Position numbers and translations under genes: made by a program. Below are positions 2,471-15,133 of a stretch of DNA of 15,675 nt, piece by piece. Each line of letters begins with the position of its first letter. Within the stretch, counting starts at the first letter, position 1. The DNA is taken from positions 1-15,675 of the forward strand of contig JAJXTL010000058.1 in NCBI GenBank assembly GCA_021783855.1, in the 5' to 3' direction. The stretch is from Pseudomonadota bacterium (GTDB taxonomy: Bacteria; Pseudomonadota; Gammaproteobacteria; Burkholderiales; Gallionellaceae). A model generated the notes under the pieces. That model saw nothing but the letters and a program-made list of their open reading frames with translations, searched no databases and was not told the origin of the DNA.

Positions 2471-2498
2471 GTCCTTCACTCAGAAACAGGAGCTTTAG

Positions 2499-2627
2499 GG
2501 AACCGCTGATTTAATCCGTTCGTGGTGAGCCTGTCGAACCATGGCCGGATTAAATCATTAATAATCATATTATTAGATCAACCCTTCGACATGCTCAGGG
2601 CGAACGGGTGATTTTTTCAGCGGTTCC
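2499..2627. mobile_element. MITE-like palindromic element with terminal inverted repeats
   Basis: A 129-bp non-coding element bounded by perfect 11-bp inverted repeats GGAACCGCTGA (2499-2509) and TCAGCGGTTCC (2617-2627). TTAG occurs immediately outside both ends (2495-2498 and 2628-2631), consistent with a 4-bp target duplication. Inside is a perfect 12-bp inverted pair TGATTTAATCCG / CGGATTAAATCA (2507-2518 and 2546-2557). A longer imperfect pair includes the CGTTCG...TGTCGAA core and its partner in 2584-2607. There is no transposase, so movement would need one supplied in trans. An alternative is a REP/BOX-type structured repeat at the 3' end of purH, with the flanking TTAG fortuitous. The internal TTCGAC...GAACGG motif resembles a dispersed sequence I recall from many genomes (not verified). 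Confidence 0.6.
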
Positions 2628-2675
2628 TTAGCTCCGTGGTTTCGTGGGAATGCCCTTGCGGCATCAATCCTGCCT

Positions 2676-7553: not shown

Positions 7554-7657
7554 CGGTTCTATATGAAATGCAGTGGGTAATGTGAAAACGTCAAAGTAAA
7601 TAGTACGATGGAATTATGTACGTTCCATATCACCCTCAGCCCCTGTCCGCCGCCGAA

Positions 7658-7875
7658 GATAGTCACAAGCAAGCGGTGATGTAAGGCGAGCACTGTTTGA
7701 GTTCCGCAGCGGGGGAGCGTGGTGTGCGACCCGCCAGGGCGAGTTGCGCAGCCCCGTTTGCTTGTGACTATCAAGGGTACGCCGATGGCGCGGCAAACCG
7801 GGGTCGCCTTCTTTTTGGTGACTTCTTCTTGGCGACGCAAGAAAAAGTCACCAGCTGCCGGTCTGCCACCGGCAA
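7658..7875 (+). repeat. Structured dispersed repeat, copy 1
   Basis: About 218 bp, homologous to copy 2 (9592-9813) in the same orientation. Outer stem: 7658-7676 pairs with 7754-7772 (18 of 19 positions). Inner stem: GCGGG (7709-7713) with CCCGC (7730-7734). 3' stem A: 7816-7831 with 7838-7853 (15 of 16, 6-nt loop). 3' stem B: GCCGGT (7857-7862) with ACCGGC (7868-7873). Blocks identical to copy 2 lie at 7685-7712 and 7731-7757. It sits between convergent dsbC and hicB. The rest of the dsbC-hicB gap (7554-7657 and 7876-7912) shows no gene. Several short ORFs across it in different frames are not believable as proteins. The strand assignment is arbitrary. Confidence 0.85.
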
Positions 7876-7912
7876 TAACTCGGCAACTCAAAATAGTCGG
7901 TTCAGCGCCGGG

Positions 7913-8125
7913 TTAGGCTGCGATTTCGAGGTATTCAACGATGCTTACCGGTTGCGGGATAGGCAAGCCGTCTTCAATGAGCGCCTCAATGTGAAATTCG
8001 ATTGCTTCACGAATTTCACGTTCGGTTTCTTCGACGGTGAAACCCGTAGCGACGCAGCCAGGTAAATCTGGTACGTAGGCTGAATAATTGTTGGCTGCTT
8101 TTTCGACAACGATTGCGTAACGCAT
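7913..8125 (-). CDS. hicB: HicB-family antitoxin-like protein (orphan)
   Basis: A 70-aa protein with the UPF0150/HicB fold signature: N-terminal strand MRYAIVVEKAANNYSAYVPD, the conserved LPGCVATGFTVEETEREIRE core (D20-L-P-G-C is the family hallmark), and the helix AIEFHIEALIEDG ending GLPIPQP. HicB proteins neutralise the HicA mRNA interferase and often repress their own operon. This short version has only the partially degraded RNase-H-like fold and no C-terminal DNA-binding domain. AAAGGG lies about 9 nt before the ATG. The preceding frame, ending 4 bp upstream, is the C-terminal half of a HicA, so the locus was once a hicAB pair. It may persist as an anti-addiction antitoxin or as decaying DNA. 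Confidence 0.88.
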   Translation of the reverse strand: MRYAIVVEKAANNYSAYVPDLPGCVATGFTVEETEREIREAIEFHIEALIEDGLPIPQPVSIVEYLEIAA

Positions 8126-8129
8126 GGTA

Positions 8130-8243
8130 TTAGCCCTTTAACTGTGCCTGTTTAAGTATCCTGTTCAATGTGCCGTGCGCTAAATCATCGCTTGGTTTGT
8201 CGGGCACTGTAACTCGTCCACTTTTGATGAGATGCTTGCATAC
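8130..8243 (-). pseudogene. hicA: 5'-truncated hicA toxin remnant
   Basis: Thirty-seven open codons ending in TAA at 8130 encode SGRVTVPDKPSDDLAHGTLN followed by RILKQAQLKG, the C-terminal half of HicA (the G-R-x-T-V-P strand and the G-T-L-x-x-I-L-x-Q-A helix). The frame is closed upstream by TGA at 8244-8246. The N-terminal part, including the G-S-H motif with the catalytic histidine, cannot be found in any frame of the 96 bp before the mltA end. The toxin is therefore presumably inactive. Order and spacing (hicA, 4 bp, hicB) are typical of intact hicAB operons. Confidence 0.75.
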
Positions 8244-8306
8244 TCAGCAAACGCAAGGAGTCCGTCCTTTACTTTATCGTTTTTTCCCTGGCCTGACCGA
8301 TTTTTC

Positions 8307-8329
8307 AAAAAAACAGTCTGCCGGCGGCA
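8307..8329 (-). terminator. Possible weak intrinsic terminator after mltA
   Basis: On the minus strand, 11 bp past the mltA stop, TGCC-GCC-GGCA can form a short GC-rich stem. It is followed after 4 nt by a run of seven T (8307-8313). The stem is only 4 bp, so termination efficiency is doubtful. Confidence 0.4.
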
Positions 8330-8339
8330 CTCAAACCCG

Positions 8340-9575
8340 TCAGTTCAGCGCGGGTTCTGCGCCTTTTGGGAAAAATACCCACATCTGCCCGCGCTGTTTC
8401 ATGCGGCCCGCCAGCATCCCAGCCTGATCGCCGAAACCCCAGAAAAAATCCGCCCGCACCGCGCCGCGTATCGCGCCGCCGGTATCCTGCGCCATCATCA
8501 GGCGGTTCAGCGGCTCGTCCGTATTTGGATAGCTGGTAGAGAGAAACACCGGCGCGCCTAACGGAATGGTGCGCGGATCAATCGCGATGCTGTATGCGTC
8601 GGTCAGCGGCACGCCGAGCGCGCCTAACGGCGCAGGCAAGCTGTCCGGCAACTCGCGGAAAAACACGTAGCTGGGATTCTGCTCCAGCAGCGCGGCCAGT
8701 TTCGCCGGGTTTTGCTCCGCCCAATGCTTGATACCTTGCATCGAAGCCTGATCGGCAGCGAGCTCTCCCGCATCGATCAGCTTCCTGCCGATGGAAACAT
8801 AGGGGTGACCATTCTGGTCGGCATAGCCGACCTTGATCAGCCGCCCGTCCGGCAATTCAATGCGTCCCGAACCCTGAATCTGCAAAAAGAACAGGTCGAC
8901 CTGATTGTCCACCCAGAACAGCACGCGTTGCCCGCCACGGCCTTCGTCGATCTCGGCACGACTGTAATAAGGCACAACATGATGGCCTTGCAGCCGCCCG
9001 CGCAGACGCAGGTTTTTTAATTGCGGATAAACATCAGCAAGGTCTATCGTCAGCAGATCGTCAGGTGCAGCATACAGCGGGTATTTGAAACGCGCGGTTT
9101 TGACCAGACTGCCTGTCAAACGGGGTTCGTAGTAACCGGTAATCAGACCCTGCGATGAACCGTCCGGATTAAACACCTGATAGGGCGTGAAGGATTCTTC
9201 AAAGAACGACCTCACTGTTTCATTGTCGGGCTGAGCCATCGCGCTGGCTCTTGTGCAAACATCCTGCCAATCGGGCTTGCGCTTCAAGGCGTGACAGCTT
9301 TGCAGAAAAGCCGCAAAGCTTGGCTGCAAGTCGGTTTTTTGCCAGTCCGGCAGCATTTCCCAGTGGCTGACTGCAAATGTCGGGGCGGGCACCTCAACCA
9401 CAGGCGGAACGACGAGTATTTTTGGCGTTGGCGTAACGGTGCAGGCCGTCAGCAACACCAGCGGCAGCAGTAATAACCTGGCAGCTGATGTTACACAAAC
9501 ATGCTTTAAAGTTGAGAATAACTGATGACATGAATCAATGCGTTTTTTGTAAGCCGCACCTGACCTATCGGCCAC
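8340..9575 (-). CDS. mltA: Membrane-bound lytic murein transglycosylase A
   Basis: A lipoprotein lytic transglycosylase that cleaves peptidoglycan with 1,6-anhydro product formation, anchored in the outer membrane facing the periplasm. From the GTG at 9575 it is 411 aa: a hydrophobic stretch RLLLLPLVLLTAC with the lipobox L-T-A-C (C45 becomes lipidated), then the MltA barrel domain with ITGYYEPRLTGS, and the C-terminal 3D/barwin-like part with IDPRTIPLGAPVFL and, at about 360-380, the MAQDTGGAIRGAVRADFFWG block containing the catalytic aspartate region. The mature part, about 367 aa, is near the E. coli size. The start is uncertain: no ATG lies in frame near the signal peptide. The options are GTG 9575 (a long, odd n-region), a rare ATT at 9539, or ATGs at 9845/9866 that would translate through the repeat. 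Confidence 0.9.
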   Translation of the reverse strand: MADRSGAAYKKRIDSCHQLFSTLKHVCVTSAARLLLLPLVLLTACTVTPTPKILVVPPVVEVPAPTFAVSHWEMLPDWQKTDLQPSFAAFLQSCHALKRKPDWQDVCTRASAMAQPDNETVRSFFEESFTPYQVFNPDGSSQGLITGYYEPRLTGSLVKTARFKYPLYAAPDDLLTIDLADVYPQLKNLRLRGRLQGHHVVPYYSRAEIDEGRGGQRVLFWVDNQVDLFFLQIQGSGRIELPDGRLIKVGYADQNGHPYVSIGRKLIDAGELAADQASMQGIKHWAEQNPAKLAALLEQNPSYVFFRELPDSLPAPLGALGVPLTDAYSIAIDPRTIPLGAPVFLSTSYPNTDEPLNRLMMAQDTGGAIRGAVRADFFWGFGDQAGMLAGRMKQRGQMWVFFPKGAEPALN

Positions 9576-9591
9576 ACCCCCCTGTGCGCCG

Positions 9592-9813
9592 CATCGTTCA
9601 TGTGCAATCAGACGGCGTTGCAGGCGAGCACTGTTTGAGTTCCGCAGCGGTGCGCGTATCGTGCACACCGCCAGGGCGAGTTGCGCAGCCCCGTCTGATC
9701 GCGCATGAACGATGGAACCCCGCAGGGGCGGCAAACCGGGGTCGCCTTCTTTTTGGTTACTTTTTCTGGGCGACACAAGAAAAAGTAACCAGCCGCCGGG
9801 CTGCCCCCGGCAA
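9592..9813 (+). repeat. Structured dispersed repeat, copy 2
   Basis: About 222 bp, homologous to copy 1 (7658-7875). Outer stem: 9592-9615 pairs with 9691-9714 (22 of 24), with a sequence unlike the outer stem of copy 1. Inner stem: GCGGTG (9647-9652) with CACCGC (9666-9671). 3' stem A: 9754-9769 with 9776-9791 (15 of 16). 3' stem B: GCCGGG (9795-9800) with CCCGGC (9806-9811). Blocks identical to copy 1 lie at 9623-9650 and 9668-9694. It sits between apaG and mltA and ends 16 bp before the likely mltA start. The remaining spacer (9814-9899) shows nothing recognisable. Confidence 0.85.
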
Positions 9814-9899
9814 GGCCGAGGCAATATTTTTGTCTCTGATTTCATTATTAAGCACGCCTTGTGCATGACATCGGCCAGGACGCAACGCTAAAAAACTGA

Positions 9900-12167: not shown

Positions 12168-13055
12168 ATGATCTCGAAAAACGGCCCAGCCATAGGTGAC
12201 CCATCCTTCGAGGAATTGAAACAGTCCAATGAGCACGATGCCGAATACTGGAGCGCTCGCGACTTGCAACCATTACTGGGCTATTCTCAATGGCGGCGCT
12301 TTGAAGATGCCATCAAGCGCGCGATAACCTCCTGTGAGCAATCAGGAAATAATCCGGTGCATCACTTTGCCGGCGCCGGCAAACCGATCGTTGGAGGCAA
12401 GGGGGCAGTGCAAACGGTTGATGACTACCAATTGTCCCGTTTCGCATGCTACTTGATTGCCCAGAACGGCGACCCGCGCAAACCGGAAATTGCCCACGCG
12501 CAAAAGTATTTTGCTATTCAGGCACGCAAACAAGAGCTCAGCGAACAGCTCGCCGCCGATCAGGAGCGGCTGGAACTGCGGAAACACACATCTGAAGAAT
12601 TCAAGATGCTTTCCGGCGCAGCCCGGCAAGCTGGCGTCCAGGACAAAATGTTTGGCGTATTTCACGATGCAGGTTACAAAGGCTTGTATGGCGGACTGGG
12701 TGGCGATGCCATCAAAGCCAGAAAGAATCTTCCGGTCAAGGAACAATTGCTGGATCGCATGAATTCCACAGAACTGGCTGCCAATCAATTCCGCATGACT
12801 CAAACCCGAGATAAACTGGCACGCGATAACATCAACAGCCAGCAGCAAGCTATCCGCACCCATGAACAAGTCGGCAAGGAAGTACGCGCCGCCATCGAGC
12901 GTATTGGCGGCACTCTCCCTGAACGGATTCCACCCGCCGAACACATCAAGGAAGTCGAAAAGCGCATCAAAAATGCCGTTCCCAAAATGGAGCTGGATGA
13001 GAAGGATGCGGGTGGGCTGCTCGGTGAAGTAAACAATACCACCAAAGAAAAATAA
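12168..13055 (+). CDS. dinD: DNA damage-inducible protein D-like (BRO-N type)
   Basis: A 295-aa protein with the DinD signature: EYWSARDLQPLLGYSQWRRF at about 26-45, then AIKRAITSCEQSGN, and VDDYQLSRFACYLIAQNGDP (about 83-102), the BRO-N-like domain. KYFAIQARKQE follows, and a charged C-terminal helical half (about 117-290) is probably coiled coil. E. coli DinD (274 aa) is SOS-induced and interferes with RecA filament activity. Here no LexA box is seen upstream and the gene starts 37 bp after ilvA, so it may depend on ilvA transcription or on a promoter not visible to me. It heads an accessory block with the small ORF, the DUF1016 nuclease and the MntA-HepT fusion. DinD-like genes are often carried on mobile elements. 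Confidence 0.88.
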   Translation: MISKNGPAIGDPSFEELKQSNEHDAEYWSARDLQPLLGYSQWRRFEDAIKRAITSCEQSGNNPVHHFAGAGKPIVGGKGAVQTVDDYQLSRFACYLIAQNGDPRKPEIAHAQKYFAIQARKQELSEQLAADQERLELRKHTSEEFKMLSGAARQAGVQDKMFGVFHDAGYKGLYGGLGGDAIKARKNLPVKEQLLDRMNSTELAANQFRMTQTRDKLARDNINSQQQAIRTHEQVGKEVRAAIERIGGTLPERIPPAEHIKEVEKRIKNAVPKMELDEKDAGGLLGEVNNTTKEK

Positions 13056-13059
13056 ACTG

Positions 13060-13218
13060 ATGATTTCCAAAGACACACTGCCGCAATTACTTACGCAACC
13101 TGGCTTCAAAAAACAGGGCGCAATCTACGGAAAGACTATTGATTCTTCCATCTTAAAAGTCGCCATGATTACTGCTGCACCCGCCATGAAGCAGGCCATC
13201 ATGCAGCGGTATTTGTAA
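13060..13218 (+). CDS. Small uncharacterised protein, 52 aa
   Basis: An ORF too small for most annotations, beginning MISKDTLPQLLTQPGFKKQG and ending APAMKQAIMQRYL. I do not recognise the family. It is basic (K/R-rich with few acids), without a membrane segment, and its last 20 residues could form an amphipathic helix. Support comes from packing: its ATG is 4 bp after the dinD stop, and its TAA shares an A with the next in-frame ATG (TAATG, 13216-13220), filling the gap exactly. Its first four residues (MISK) match those of DinD. No good Shine-Dalgarno sequence precedes it, so reinitiation after dinD is likely. Alternatively it is the degraded N-terminus of a larger protein. Confidence 0.55.
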   Translation: MISKDTLPQLLTQPGFKKQGAIYGKTIDSSILKVAMITAAPAMKQAIMQRYL

Positions 13219-14324
13219 TGGGGAGGCAAATGAATGCTGACAAACCAGGCTCTACGCTGCATTATCCCGCCCTGCTGAGCGACATCAAGCATCGCATCCG
13301 ACAGGCGCAAACTCGGGCGATCCTGGCTGTCAATCGTGAATTAATGGCATTGTATTGGGATATCGGCCGTCTGATTGACGGGCGGCAAAAGCAAGAGGGC
13401 TGGGGAGCCGCCGTTATCCCGAGACTGGTAAAAGACTTATACAACGAACTGCCGGAAGAAAAGGGTTTTTCCGAACGCAACATCAAGCTGATGCTGCCAT
13501 TTTTTCGCGAGTATCCAACGCTCTTTATCATGGATGAAATTGGGCAACCACTGGTTGCCCAATTGCCAGGAGATGCACCATCTACTGAAATAGGGCAACA
13601 GGCGGTTGCCCAAATTCCGTGGGCGCACAATGTGTTGCTCATGCAACGTGTGAAAGACCGTGCAACCCGCATCTGGTATGCGGAAGCAACCTTCACCAAC
13701 GGATGGAGCCGCAATATTTTGGCGATGCAGATTGAAACTGCCGCACACAAGAGGCTAGGCAACGCCACCAGCAATTTTTCTGCGCGTTTGCCAAACCCTC
13801 AATCCGATCTTGTCCAACATGCACTGAAAGATCCCTATCTGTTTGACTTTTTGACACTGACAGAACCTTTTCATGAGCGCGAATTGGAGACTGGATTGAT
13901 TCAACATCTGGAAAAATTCTTGTTGGAGTTGGGGCAAGGTTTTGCATTTGTCGGTCGCCAGCATCGCATTGAAGTAGGTGATCAGGATTTTTATATCGAC
14001 CTGCTTTTTTATCATTTAAAATTGTGCTGTTTTGTGGTCATCGAGTTAAAACGCGGCGCATTCAAGCCCGAGTACGCAGGGAAAATGAATTTTTATTGCA
14101 GCATGGTAGATGATGTGCTGAAGCATCAAACCGATACGCCTACTATCGGGCTGATACTTTGCCAGGAGCAAAACAAGGTGTTGGCCGAATATGCCTTGCG
14201 AGGGATGGATAAACCGATAGGCATTTCTACCTTTGATCTGACCCGTGCGTTGCCAACCGAACTGGAATCGAGCTTGCCAAGCATCGAGCAGATTGAGCGC
14301 GAGCTGGGAGATGAGGCGATATGA
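13218..14324 (+). CDS. DUF1016/YhcG-type PD-(D/E)XK nuclease family protein
   Basis: A 368-aa protein of the YhcG family. The N-terminal DUF1016_N region (about 15-150) has ILAVNRELMALYWDIGRLI, GWGAAVIPRLVKDL, GFSERNIKLM and IPWAHNVLLMQ. The C-terminal nuclease domain has the motif YIDLLFYH with D261, then VVIELKRG with E276-x-K278, and the helix AGKMNFYCSMVDD. All expected PD-(D/E)XK residues are present, so catalysis is plausible. Family members have been tied to restriction-like and defence loci, but no substrate is established. The ATG at 13218 couples to the small ORF's stop; an alternative ATG at 13230 has GGGGAGG 3 nt upstream. The 3' end overlaps the MntA-HepT fusion by ATGA. A duplicated EIGQxxVAQ(L/I)P segment (107-134) interrupts the N-terminal domain. 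Confidence 0.9.
   Translation: MGRQMNADKPGSTLHYPALLSDIKHRIRQAQTRAILAVNRELMALYWDIGRLIDGRQKQEGWGAAVIPRLVKDLYNELPEEKGFSERNIKLMLPFFREYPTLFIMDEIGQPLVAQLPGDAPSTEIGQQAVAQIPWAHNVLLMQRVKDRATRIWYAEATFTNGWSRNILAMQIETAAHKRLGNATSNFSARLPNPQSDLVQHALKDPYLFDFLTLTEPFHERELETGLIQHLEKFLLELGQGFAFVGRQHRIEVGDQDFYIDLLFYHLKLCCFVVIELKRGAFKPEYAGKMNFYCSMVDDVLKHQTDTPTIGLILCQEQNKVLAEYALRGMDKPIGISTFDLTRALPTELESSLPSIEQIERELGDEAI
13538..13611. repeat. Tandem palindromes inside the DUF1016 gene
   Basis: Within the coding sequence there is a 13-bp-arm near-continuous palindrome (13538-13550 / 13552-13564, core GGGCAACC-A-C-T-GGTTGCCC). A second, shorter one follows (GGGCAAC 13593-13599 / GTTGCCC 13605-13611). Each encodes one copy of a repeated peptide, EIGQPLVAQLP and EIGQQAVAQIP. 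Frame is preserved, which suggests insertion or duplication of a palindromic repeat that the protein tolerates. Confidence 0.75.
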
Positions 14325-15133
14325 ACCGCGACGCCATTGTGCACACCCTGCAAGCGCGCGTACCTGGCCTTCTGGCGATTTACGCTTTCGGCAGCCGCGT
14401 GCATGGCACCGATGATCGTGAGAGCGATCTTGATCTGGCGGTGCTGGTAGCAGGCTATGCCGAGCCGGTTGCTTTATGGAGATTGAGCGGCGAGCTGGCT
14501 GACCTGTCAGGTTGTCCGGTAGACTTGCTCGACCTGAGAACCGCATCAACGGTGATGCAATACCAGATTCTTACAAGCGGCGAACGTTGGTGGGCGAAGG
14601 ATGCGCAGGTATCATTGTTCGAGTCTGCCATGTTGAGCGAGAAGACCGAGCTTGATACTTCACGCGTAGGATTGCTCGACGACATTCAAAAAGAGGGAGA
14701 ATTTATGGCTGATGATGTTCTTATCACCAGAGCTGCCACCCTCAAGCGTGGTGTGGCGCGAGCCCGGGAAGAATACGAACGCGATCCTGCTACTTTTGCG
14801 GCCAGTTACACCCGGCAGGATGCGGCCATTCTGAACATACAGCGCACCTGCGAAGCCGCATTGGACATGGGGCAGCACCTGATCCGCCGCGAAAAACTGG
14901 GCGTACCGCAAAGCGCACGCGATGTATTTGCGCTGCTGGCGCAAGGCGGATGGATCACCGCAACACTGGCCGAGAGCCTGAAGCGCATGGTGGGCTTTCG
15001 CAATATAGCGGTACACGATTATCAGACTTTGCAACTGCCGATCACCGTGAGCATCATTCAAAATAATCTCGATGAGTTTCTGCAATACAGCCAGACCTTG
15101 TTGCTGCACGATGCGAATCAGTCCAAAAATTGA
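14321..15133 (+). CDS. MntA-HepT fusion: nucleotidyltransferase antitoxin joined to HEPN RNase toxin
   Basis: A 270-aa single ORF. Residues 1-128 form an MntA-type nucleotidyltransferase with GS-X10-DXD: G24-S25 ... D36-L-D38, in IYAFGSRVHGTDDRESDLDL. Residues 129-270 form a HepT/DUF86 HEPN RNase with the RX4HXY motif R227-NIAV-H232-D-Y234. In characterised systems these are two overlapping genes: MntA (about 139 aa) oligo-AMPylates the tyrosine of RX4HXY and so blocks the HepT RNase. The total here nearly equals the sum of both, with no stop between them. All catalytic and target residues are present. M129 is preceded by GAGGGAG, the HepT start expected in an unfused operon. The gene is coupled to the DUF1016 nuclease by ATGA, and ends 2 bp before the next gene. 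Confidence 0.9.
   Translation: MNRDAIVHTLQARVPGLLAIYAFGSRVHGTDDRESDLDLAVLVAGYAEPVALWRLSGELADLSGCPVDLLDLRTASTVMQYQILTSGERWWAKDAQVSLFESAMLSEKTELDTSRVGLLDDIQKEGEFMADDVLITRAATLKRGVARAREEYERDPATFAASYTRQDAAILNIQRTCEAALDMGQHLIRREKLGVPQSARDVFALLAQGGWITATLAESLKRMVGFRNIAVHDYQTLQLPITVSIIQNNLDEFLQYSQTLLLHDANQSKN
14693..14707 (+). promoter_or_regulatory. Internal ribosome site and ATG for a separate HepT product
   Basis: GAGGGAG (14693-14699) stands 5 nt before an in-frame ATG (14705-14707) exactly at the MntA/HepT domain border. It is a better Shine-Dalgarno sequence than at most other starts in this block. It suggests that free HepT (142 aa) is made in addition to the fusion, or that the stop between two formerly separate genes was lost recently. 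Confidence 0.6.

Follow-up and report, generated by a model that had tools for sequence, protein, structure and literature searches.

A widespread mobile element of proteobacterial genomes with a 3′ domain that covaries as a predicted double pseudoknot

Dispersed repeats of bacterial genomes are usually read as simple palindromes. REP sequences (repetitive extragenic palindromes) and REPINs comprise a palindrome of 20–40 nt with a tetranucleotide tag, and the RAYT gene (REP-associated tyrosine transposase) is flanked by such repeats. Among more elaborate folds, telomerase RNA and SAM-II have H-type pseudoknots with a triple helix formed by loop 1. The guanidine-III riboswitch is another, outlined in its published description as an H-type pseudoknot without loop 2 and with a loop-1 triple helix (PMC5696562). 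The nearest described repeat is BRE, which is summarized in its source as 75–91 bp long, often tandem, present in four Bordetella species and transcribed at one locus, bprJ (PMC3110155). MRSC-65-2 is introduced by its source as an abundant structured repeat with the motif UYCCGG, its RNA or DNA form being left undecided there (PMC11109978). Here we analyze an element of about 200–300 nt, of which two copies, W1 and W2, lie on the + strand of a 15,675-nucleotide stretch of a Gallionellaceae genome (GenBank assembly GCA_021783855.1, contig JAJXTL010000058.1; this whole stretch is the window). We are highly confident that the element joins a covarying fold to mobility. That W1 and W2 are copies of a widespread element whose knotted 3′ end acts as an exit-side stabilizer or insulator is a tentative reading, which we find plausible without holding it to be the probable one.

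Going by the summary of BRE, the element resembles it as a betaproteobacterial intergenic repeat with mobile features (PMC3110155). However, the model of the element finds no copy in 12 Bordetella genomes, among which the four BRE species are not identifiable: R2 matches were absent from six Bordetella, one Achromobacter and one Massilia genome, and a set of nine Bordetella genomes that includes three of the six gave none either. On the published summary, BRE is probably, not certainly, a different repeat. MRSC-65-2 resembles the element in being abundant and structured, with RNA and DNA both possible as its form; UYCCGG, described for it, was not seen as a feature of the element (PMC11109978). 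Copies are intergenic, numerous and found in inverted pairs, as are those of REP, REPIN and BIMEs (bacterial interspersed mosaic elements) with RAYT, but each is about 200 nt long with predicted pseudoknots, and no RAYT-type gene stands near the core in the fetched loci. A preliminary description of the two copies had pointed to Rfam; no family matches them, the window giving only weak unrelated matches below the curated cut-offs and none to guanidine-III or another described riboswitch family. No description of the element was found in the open-access literature, subscription papers and supplements lying outside the search, and five of its typical sequence words occur only in one unrelated open-access paper.

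W1 and W2 are homologous. The preliminary description had placed them at 7658–7875 and 9592–9813; the homology stands, and the shared core proves longer (Table 1). That the copies differ in their letters and keep their pairing was confirmed letter by letter. The outer arms, which would form a long variable stem, P1, around an inner hairpin, P2, when read on the + strand, pair at 18 Watson–Crick positions and one G·T out of 19 in W1, and at 22 Watson–Crick positions, one G·T and one mismatch out of 24 in W2. As had been stated, they are unrelated between the copies: when the first 19 places of the two 5′ arms are compared, 5 agree, which is near the level of chance, and neither 5′ arm pairs with the 3′ arm of the other copy. 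The described changes in stem A (TGGTGACTT/AAGTCACCA versus TGGTTACTT/AAGTAACCA) and stem B (GCCGGT/ACCGGC versus GCCGGG/CCCGGC) are also present. The 5′ arm fits its own 3′ arm better than the average of the other copies in 64 of 73 Gallionellaceae copies (49/70 with an earlier, cruder anchor). The strong covariation over many copies presented below upholds the central claim that the copies preserve their fold and not their sequence.

The last 83 or so nucleotides of the element covary as a predicted H-type pseudoknot composed of helix PK1 and the 13-bp stem A. A second predicted pseudoknot, PK2, lies 3′ of the first and reaches into the terminal hairpin B. In the 3′ domain of 45 Gallionellaceae sequences, 97.0% of cells are paired, and 13 of the 27 pairs have changes on both sides. 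The main alignment, A4, contains 137 matches (128 distinct rows) from the window and 99 selected loci of family- and class-level genomes; weak matches with E >3e-6, mostly the opposite strand of true copies, were omitted. Since the alignment was fitted to a model of stems A and B only, with the pseudoknots PK1 and PK2 left out, the fitting could not favor the latter. All 27 pairs of A4 are paired in 96.4% of cells, with changes on both sides at 26, and score 0.384 against 0.129 after shuffling and at most 0.067 after sliding. The crossing helices PK1 and PK2 by themselves are paired in 92.0% of cells, with both-side changes at 8 of 8 pairs, and their score of 0.377 falls to 0.136 on shuffling and to 0.069 or less on sliding. 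PK1 occurs as TCGCC/GGCGA, CGGCC/GGCCG, TGCCC/GGGCA, TTGCC/GGCAA, TGGCC/GGCCA and TGTCC/GGACA, and PK2 as CAG/CTG, TAG/CTA, TTG/CAA, CGG/CCG, CTG/CAG and CCG/CGG. The domain also has a shorter form with a 3-nt gap.

Shared ancestry was allowed for by a tree-aware null, in which the inferred substitutions were re-dealt over the tree with the site rates kept (150 replicates; one of the 128 rows omitted). Covariation, the check that the preliminary description had asked for, is significant under this null at some pairs of PK2, stem A and stem B. Two of the three PK2 pairs fall below E 0.05 (62–75 with E 0.020; 63–74 with none in 150 replicates), as do 5 of the 13 pairs of stem A and 2 of the 6 of stem B.

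The same test showed covariation that had not been planned for, between columns 21 and 23 and the stem A columns 36/38 and 51/53 (E from 0/150 replicates to 0.020); column 22 was not significant. The pyrimidine loop 1 (columns 19–26) mirrors the purine strand of stem A (columns 49–56) in parallel, and when a G of stem A shifts its position, the C of loop 1 shifts along. All eight T·A/C·G contacts are present in 77 of 125 sequences (3 of the 128 rows omitted), whereas shuffled partners give a mean of 18.1 and a maximum of 29. The parallel register with offset 0 reaches 0.894, against at most 0.588 for the remaining parallel offsets and at most 0.683 for antiparallel ones. We infer that loop 1 lies in the major groove as the third strand of a U·A–U/C+·G–C triple helix, the H-type pseudoknot lacking a loop 2. 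This geometry would favor the + strand, because on the minus strand a 9-nt connection must cross the shallow groove of the 13-bp stem. The guanidine-III type, as outlined, is alike in its strand order and in the major-groove position of loop 1 on stem 2 (PMC5696562). In the element, by comparison, eight triples are predicted along a stem of 13 bp, another pseudoknot and an extensive 5′ domain are present, and the copies are numerous within a genome and more often stand 3′ of genes.

Both predicted pseudoknots and the triplex register reappeared in a second set, drawn mainly from phylum-level genomes. Of its 67 distinct rows, 50 were usable (17 omitted); two of the 50, from L329, lie at a location that A4 also covers. 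PK1 is found in 44 and PK2 in 49 of the 50, against 22.2 and 30.2 when shuffled, and the full triplex register in 28, against 6.3.

When the window and 146 loci (147 sequences) were searched with a profile built from relatives of W1 and W2, 107 matches resulted, and 76 of these are full-length after removal of one duplicate copy. With the nearest genome, G001, included in each sample, R1 matches occur in 75 of 100 sampled genomes of its family and in 76 of 369 of its class, and R2 matches in 53 of 398 of its phylum. Variovorax paradoxus and Aeromonas caviae carry the element, and Burkholderia cepacia apparently has the 3′ domain alone. Undibacterium terreum has 50 matches at E up to 0.01; of nine other genomes searched with it, eight have no match and one has a single match. 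Phage and plasmid records gave no match with a W2 query, and plasmids none with queries from L220 and L241.

The copies move, by the evidence of their ends and flanks, within at least two types of miniature inverted-repeat transposable element (MITE) with unrelated terminal repeats. In S1, the subfamily of W1, the core lies between terminal repeats GGYTCTATRTGAAAT.., and in S2, the subfamily of W2, the unit ends are CTGATGTTACGCAC... Both resemble other MITEs in their terminal inverted repeats, in their 8-bp target duplications and in a length that leaves no room for a transposase. Of 25 S1 rows, 17 have 8-bp flanks alike at 7 or more positions (shuffled mean 1.0, maximum 6), as have 15 of 37 S2 rows (mean 0.7, maximum 5); some units occur once per strand, and counted once each the figures are 11/16 and 9/27. 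Unlike in other MITEs, one structured core is found within unrelated terminal repeats, and there are core-free S1 shells. Three such shells of genome G063, without detectable core and with other interiors, measure 315 bp (L257), 325 bp (L261) and 124 bp (L265), with flanks alike at 8/8, 8/8 and 6/8. As the ends of S1 and S2 differ and shells without the core exist, the core is, on these comparisons, a module carried by different mobile platforms. In L260 (1311–1522), an S1 unit with a perfect 8-bp target duplication has its core mostly deleted, stem A being shortened yet paired.

In the window itself, no 3′ partner of the W1 terminal repeat and no target duplication are visible, and the flanks of the W2 unit are alike at 5/8 places without a clear duplication. 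At the W2 site, between apaG and mltA, the core is absent in 9 of 9 close relatives (L001–L007, L009 and L013). At the W1 site, where dsbC stands beside mltA in L001 and L009, it is absent in both, the other seven having a different neighbor. L009, from the nearest genome, encodes an MltA 93% identical to that of the window, and a distance of 8 nt separates its dsbC and mltA stop codons. We read a GTG that overlaps the apaG end as a possible mltA start in L009; the two genes are kept apart by the W2 unit in the window. ISL3 was considered as the S1 transposase, and PF01610 was found in 0 of 8 genomes, other transposase families not being searched. Mobilization by RAYT was rejected: 12 Y1-transposase (PF01797) loci in 7 of the 8 genomes have no core in the sequence fetched around them, up to 1.5 kb per side. 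The preliminary description had offered a structured RNA or a mobile palindromic element, and had taken a simple transposon footprint in both copies, together with the lack of any transcript, as refuting its reading. Footprints are found at many copies, and the covarying fold stands alongside, so that each alternative is partly true of a covarying fold, putatively of RNA, on mobile DNA. The pseudoknots and the triplex register, both of which had been missed, speak against a plain palindrome.

Close pairs of copies have a preferred orientation. Among the phylum-level pairs listed, 25 of 30 are (−,+), that is, with the 5′ ends inward and hairpin B outward, the others being two (+,−), two (+,+) and one (−,−); p is 3e-11 against one quarter, with pairs treated as independent though several share a genome. 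The close pairs of U. terreum are 16 (−,+) and one (−,−). In 36 fetched head-to-head units the outer ends lie 427–856 nt apart, mostly with no room for a gene between the cores. Other head-to-head pairs enclose genes, some a single accessory or defence-like gene. Ten enclosed genes were picked by hand; seven have Pfam matches (RVT_1, CBS, PemK, P63C, AAA_15, RES and T5orf172), and PADLOC gave one strong match (RT-Toprim_I-C, E 9e-164), one general ATPase-type match and one weak match. By a simple rule on open reading frames (ORFs), 51 of 79 copies share their strand with the nearest upstream gene, and 49 of 79 have an opposed gene nearest downstream. In L310–L314 (G839) and L342–L357 (G854) the outer ends of head-to-head units extend, by eye, as short inverted repeats; these differ between genomes, AGATTGCTG being an example from U. 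terreum.

The retention of two predicted pseudoknots and a triplex register despite great sequence turnover suggests a function of the fold, and a fold kept so persistently is most simply read as a functional RNA. That it acts as RNA rather than as single-stranded DNA (ssDNA) we consider fairly likely. The fold would form in RNA upon outward transcription of a neighboring gene or cassette, and a transcript leaving a head-to-head unit either way would end with a sense copy. The knotted 3′ end might then block 3′-to-5′ decay or read-through, the least certain step, which we favor because copies tend to sit on the exit side of genes or cassettes. The element would thereby act as an exit-side stabilizer or insulator, making mobile cassettes cheap for the host; insulation as such is a doubtful proposition. 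It is somewhat unlikely, though conceivable, that we are dealing with a mobile RNA module new in kind, in which a double pseudoknot with an eight-layer triple helix rides unrelated MITEs and its head-to-head pairs cap accessory or defence cassettes, every outgoing transcript ending in the sense-strand knot; such a module would extend through much of the Gammaproteobacteria, broadly defined.

Several observations weigh against this exit-side reading. No single PK1 pair is significant under the tree-aware null (best E 1.2), and PK1 is unpaired in a subgroup, for instance in 6 rows with GCGAT/GGCAA. The C+·G–C triples require protonation. Complementarity of the pairs is indifferent to strand, and the wobble asymmetry is weak, with 57 G·T (G·U) against 31 A·C in the 3′ domain and 41 against 34 by a strict count in P1. 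What stands between the paired copies in L144 and L163 looks like ordinary genes and not like a cassette. Terminator-like sites total 5, against 3.6 (standard deviation 2.1) expected. Head-to-head pairing and the preference for gene ends could also stem only from mobility and purifying selection. Wobble asymmetry had been tried as proof of RNA; a looser P1 count of 143 against 48 had run into P2, and the counts do not separate RNA from ssDNA. One terminator-like site is found on the + strand of each window copy, its T-run being loop 1 (7790–7807 and 9725–9748). An ordinary terminator may be present; an intrinsic terminator is not favored as the full account of the element, the sites being no commoner than in shuffles. 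A group II intron, considered for a GTGCG near the 5′ end, was dismissed for its size.

The main rival of the insulator reading is that the core is an ssDNA recognition end for a putative recombinase or transposase, the inverted copies being the left and right ends of a cassette and RNA taking no part. Folds recognized as ssDNA are familiar from the hairpin ends of IS200/IS605 and REPINs and from attC sites. The head-to-head excess among the listed pairs and in U. terreum (16/17) would follow naturally, several pairs flank one accessory gene amid ordinary genes, the outer ends of the inspected U. terreum and G839 pairs extend by eye as short inverted repeats, and the weakness of the wobble asymmetry fits as well. 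However, S1 and S2 have terminal repeats and target duplications of their own, so that the core is not the recognized end there, and no enzyme is linked to it, the Y1-transposase loci described above lacking the core in their flanks. We regard this rival as possible but rather unlikely.

Less probable still is a noncoding RNA, acting in trans or binding a ligand (a regulator, a riboswitch-like element or a ribozyme), that is made from each copy and spread by mobile elements. Motifs that, on visual inspection, P2 and the two flanks of P1 keep even among highly diverged copies, the pseudoknot topology, which equals that of the guanidine-III riboswitch, and 60–80 nt of upstream sequence common by eye within subfamilies are consistent with it. 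These upstream sequences differ between subfamilies, though, and Rfam gave nothing at its curated cut-offs; only one promoter-like site was found around the window copies, against 1.5 expected, and copies lie more often 3′ of genes. Plain palindromes without selection for a fold, in which replicative template switching maintains the complementarity of the arms, are very improbable: P1 and a hairpin P4 vary in length and sequence and stay palindromic, and longer inserts are often palindromic themselves, but the process yields nested palindromes, not the covarying crossing helices PK1 and PK2 nor a third strand in mirror register.

The remaining features of the window are given at the end of Table 1. 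The HicB-like gene lies within a dsbC–mltA stretch that is missing from the nearest relative, L009.

Table 1. Positions of the element copies, their parts and other features in the window
Feature	Position	Strand	Basis or remark
Conserved structured core W1	7640–7873	+	nhmmer; end comparison over 76 full-length copies
Conserved structured core W2	9579–9811	+	nhmmer; end comparison over 76 full-length copies
W1 variable stem P1, 7658–7676/7754–7772, around conserved inner hairpin P2	7658–7772	+	
W2 variable stem P1, 9592–9615/9691–9714, around P2	9592–9714	+	
W1 3′ domain	7791–7873	+	Model matches, pair counts, triplex register
W1 PK1	7804–7808/7831–7835		
W1 loop 1 (third strand)	7809–7816		
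W1 stem A	7818–7830/7839–7851		
W1 PK2	7852–7854/7863–7865		
W1 hairpin B	7857–7862/7868–7873		
W2 3′ domain	9729–9811	+	Model matches, pair counts, triplex register
W2 PK1	9742–9746/9769–9773		
W2 loop 1	9747–9754		
W2 stem A	9756–9768/9777–9789		
W2 PK2	9790–9792/9801–9803		
W2 hairpin B	9795–9800/9806–9811		
W1 5′ terminal repeat, MITE type S1, GGTTCTATATGAAATGCAGTGGGT	7555–7578	+	Starts 1 nt past dsbC stop codon
W2 whole mobile unit, type S2, 390 bp	9485–9874	+	Diverged terminal repeats CTGATGTTACACA...TGCATGACATCGG
HicB-like antitoxin gene adjoining W1	7913–8125	−	Pfam E 1e-14
ORF open from ATG 9866, inside W2 unit, into mltA; 508 aa	8340–9866	−	
MITE-like inverted repeat TAGGGAACCGCTGATTTAATC/GATTTTTTCAGCGGTTCCTTA with inner hairpin	2496–2630		No likeness to core noticed
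Imperfect repeat, direct and inverted, inside yhcG (DUF1016) gene	13535–13618	+	
Accessory gene run: Bro-N protein, YhcG nuclease, fused nucleotidyltransferase-HepT	12168–15133		

The element is more intricate than the preliminary description could see. Two predicted pseudoknots and a triplex register kept over great divergence point to a function of the fold, and the family offers an abundant natural set for studies of RNA (or ssDNA) triplexes. The head-to-head pairs provide an opening for studying how single accessory genes may move where no transposase is visible, and the U. terreum isolate, with its some 50 matches, makes transcription of the element directly testable.

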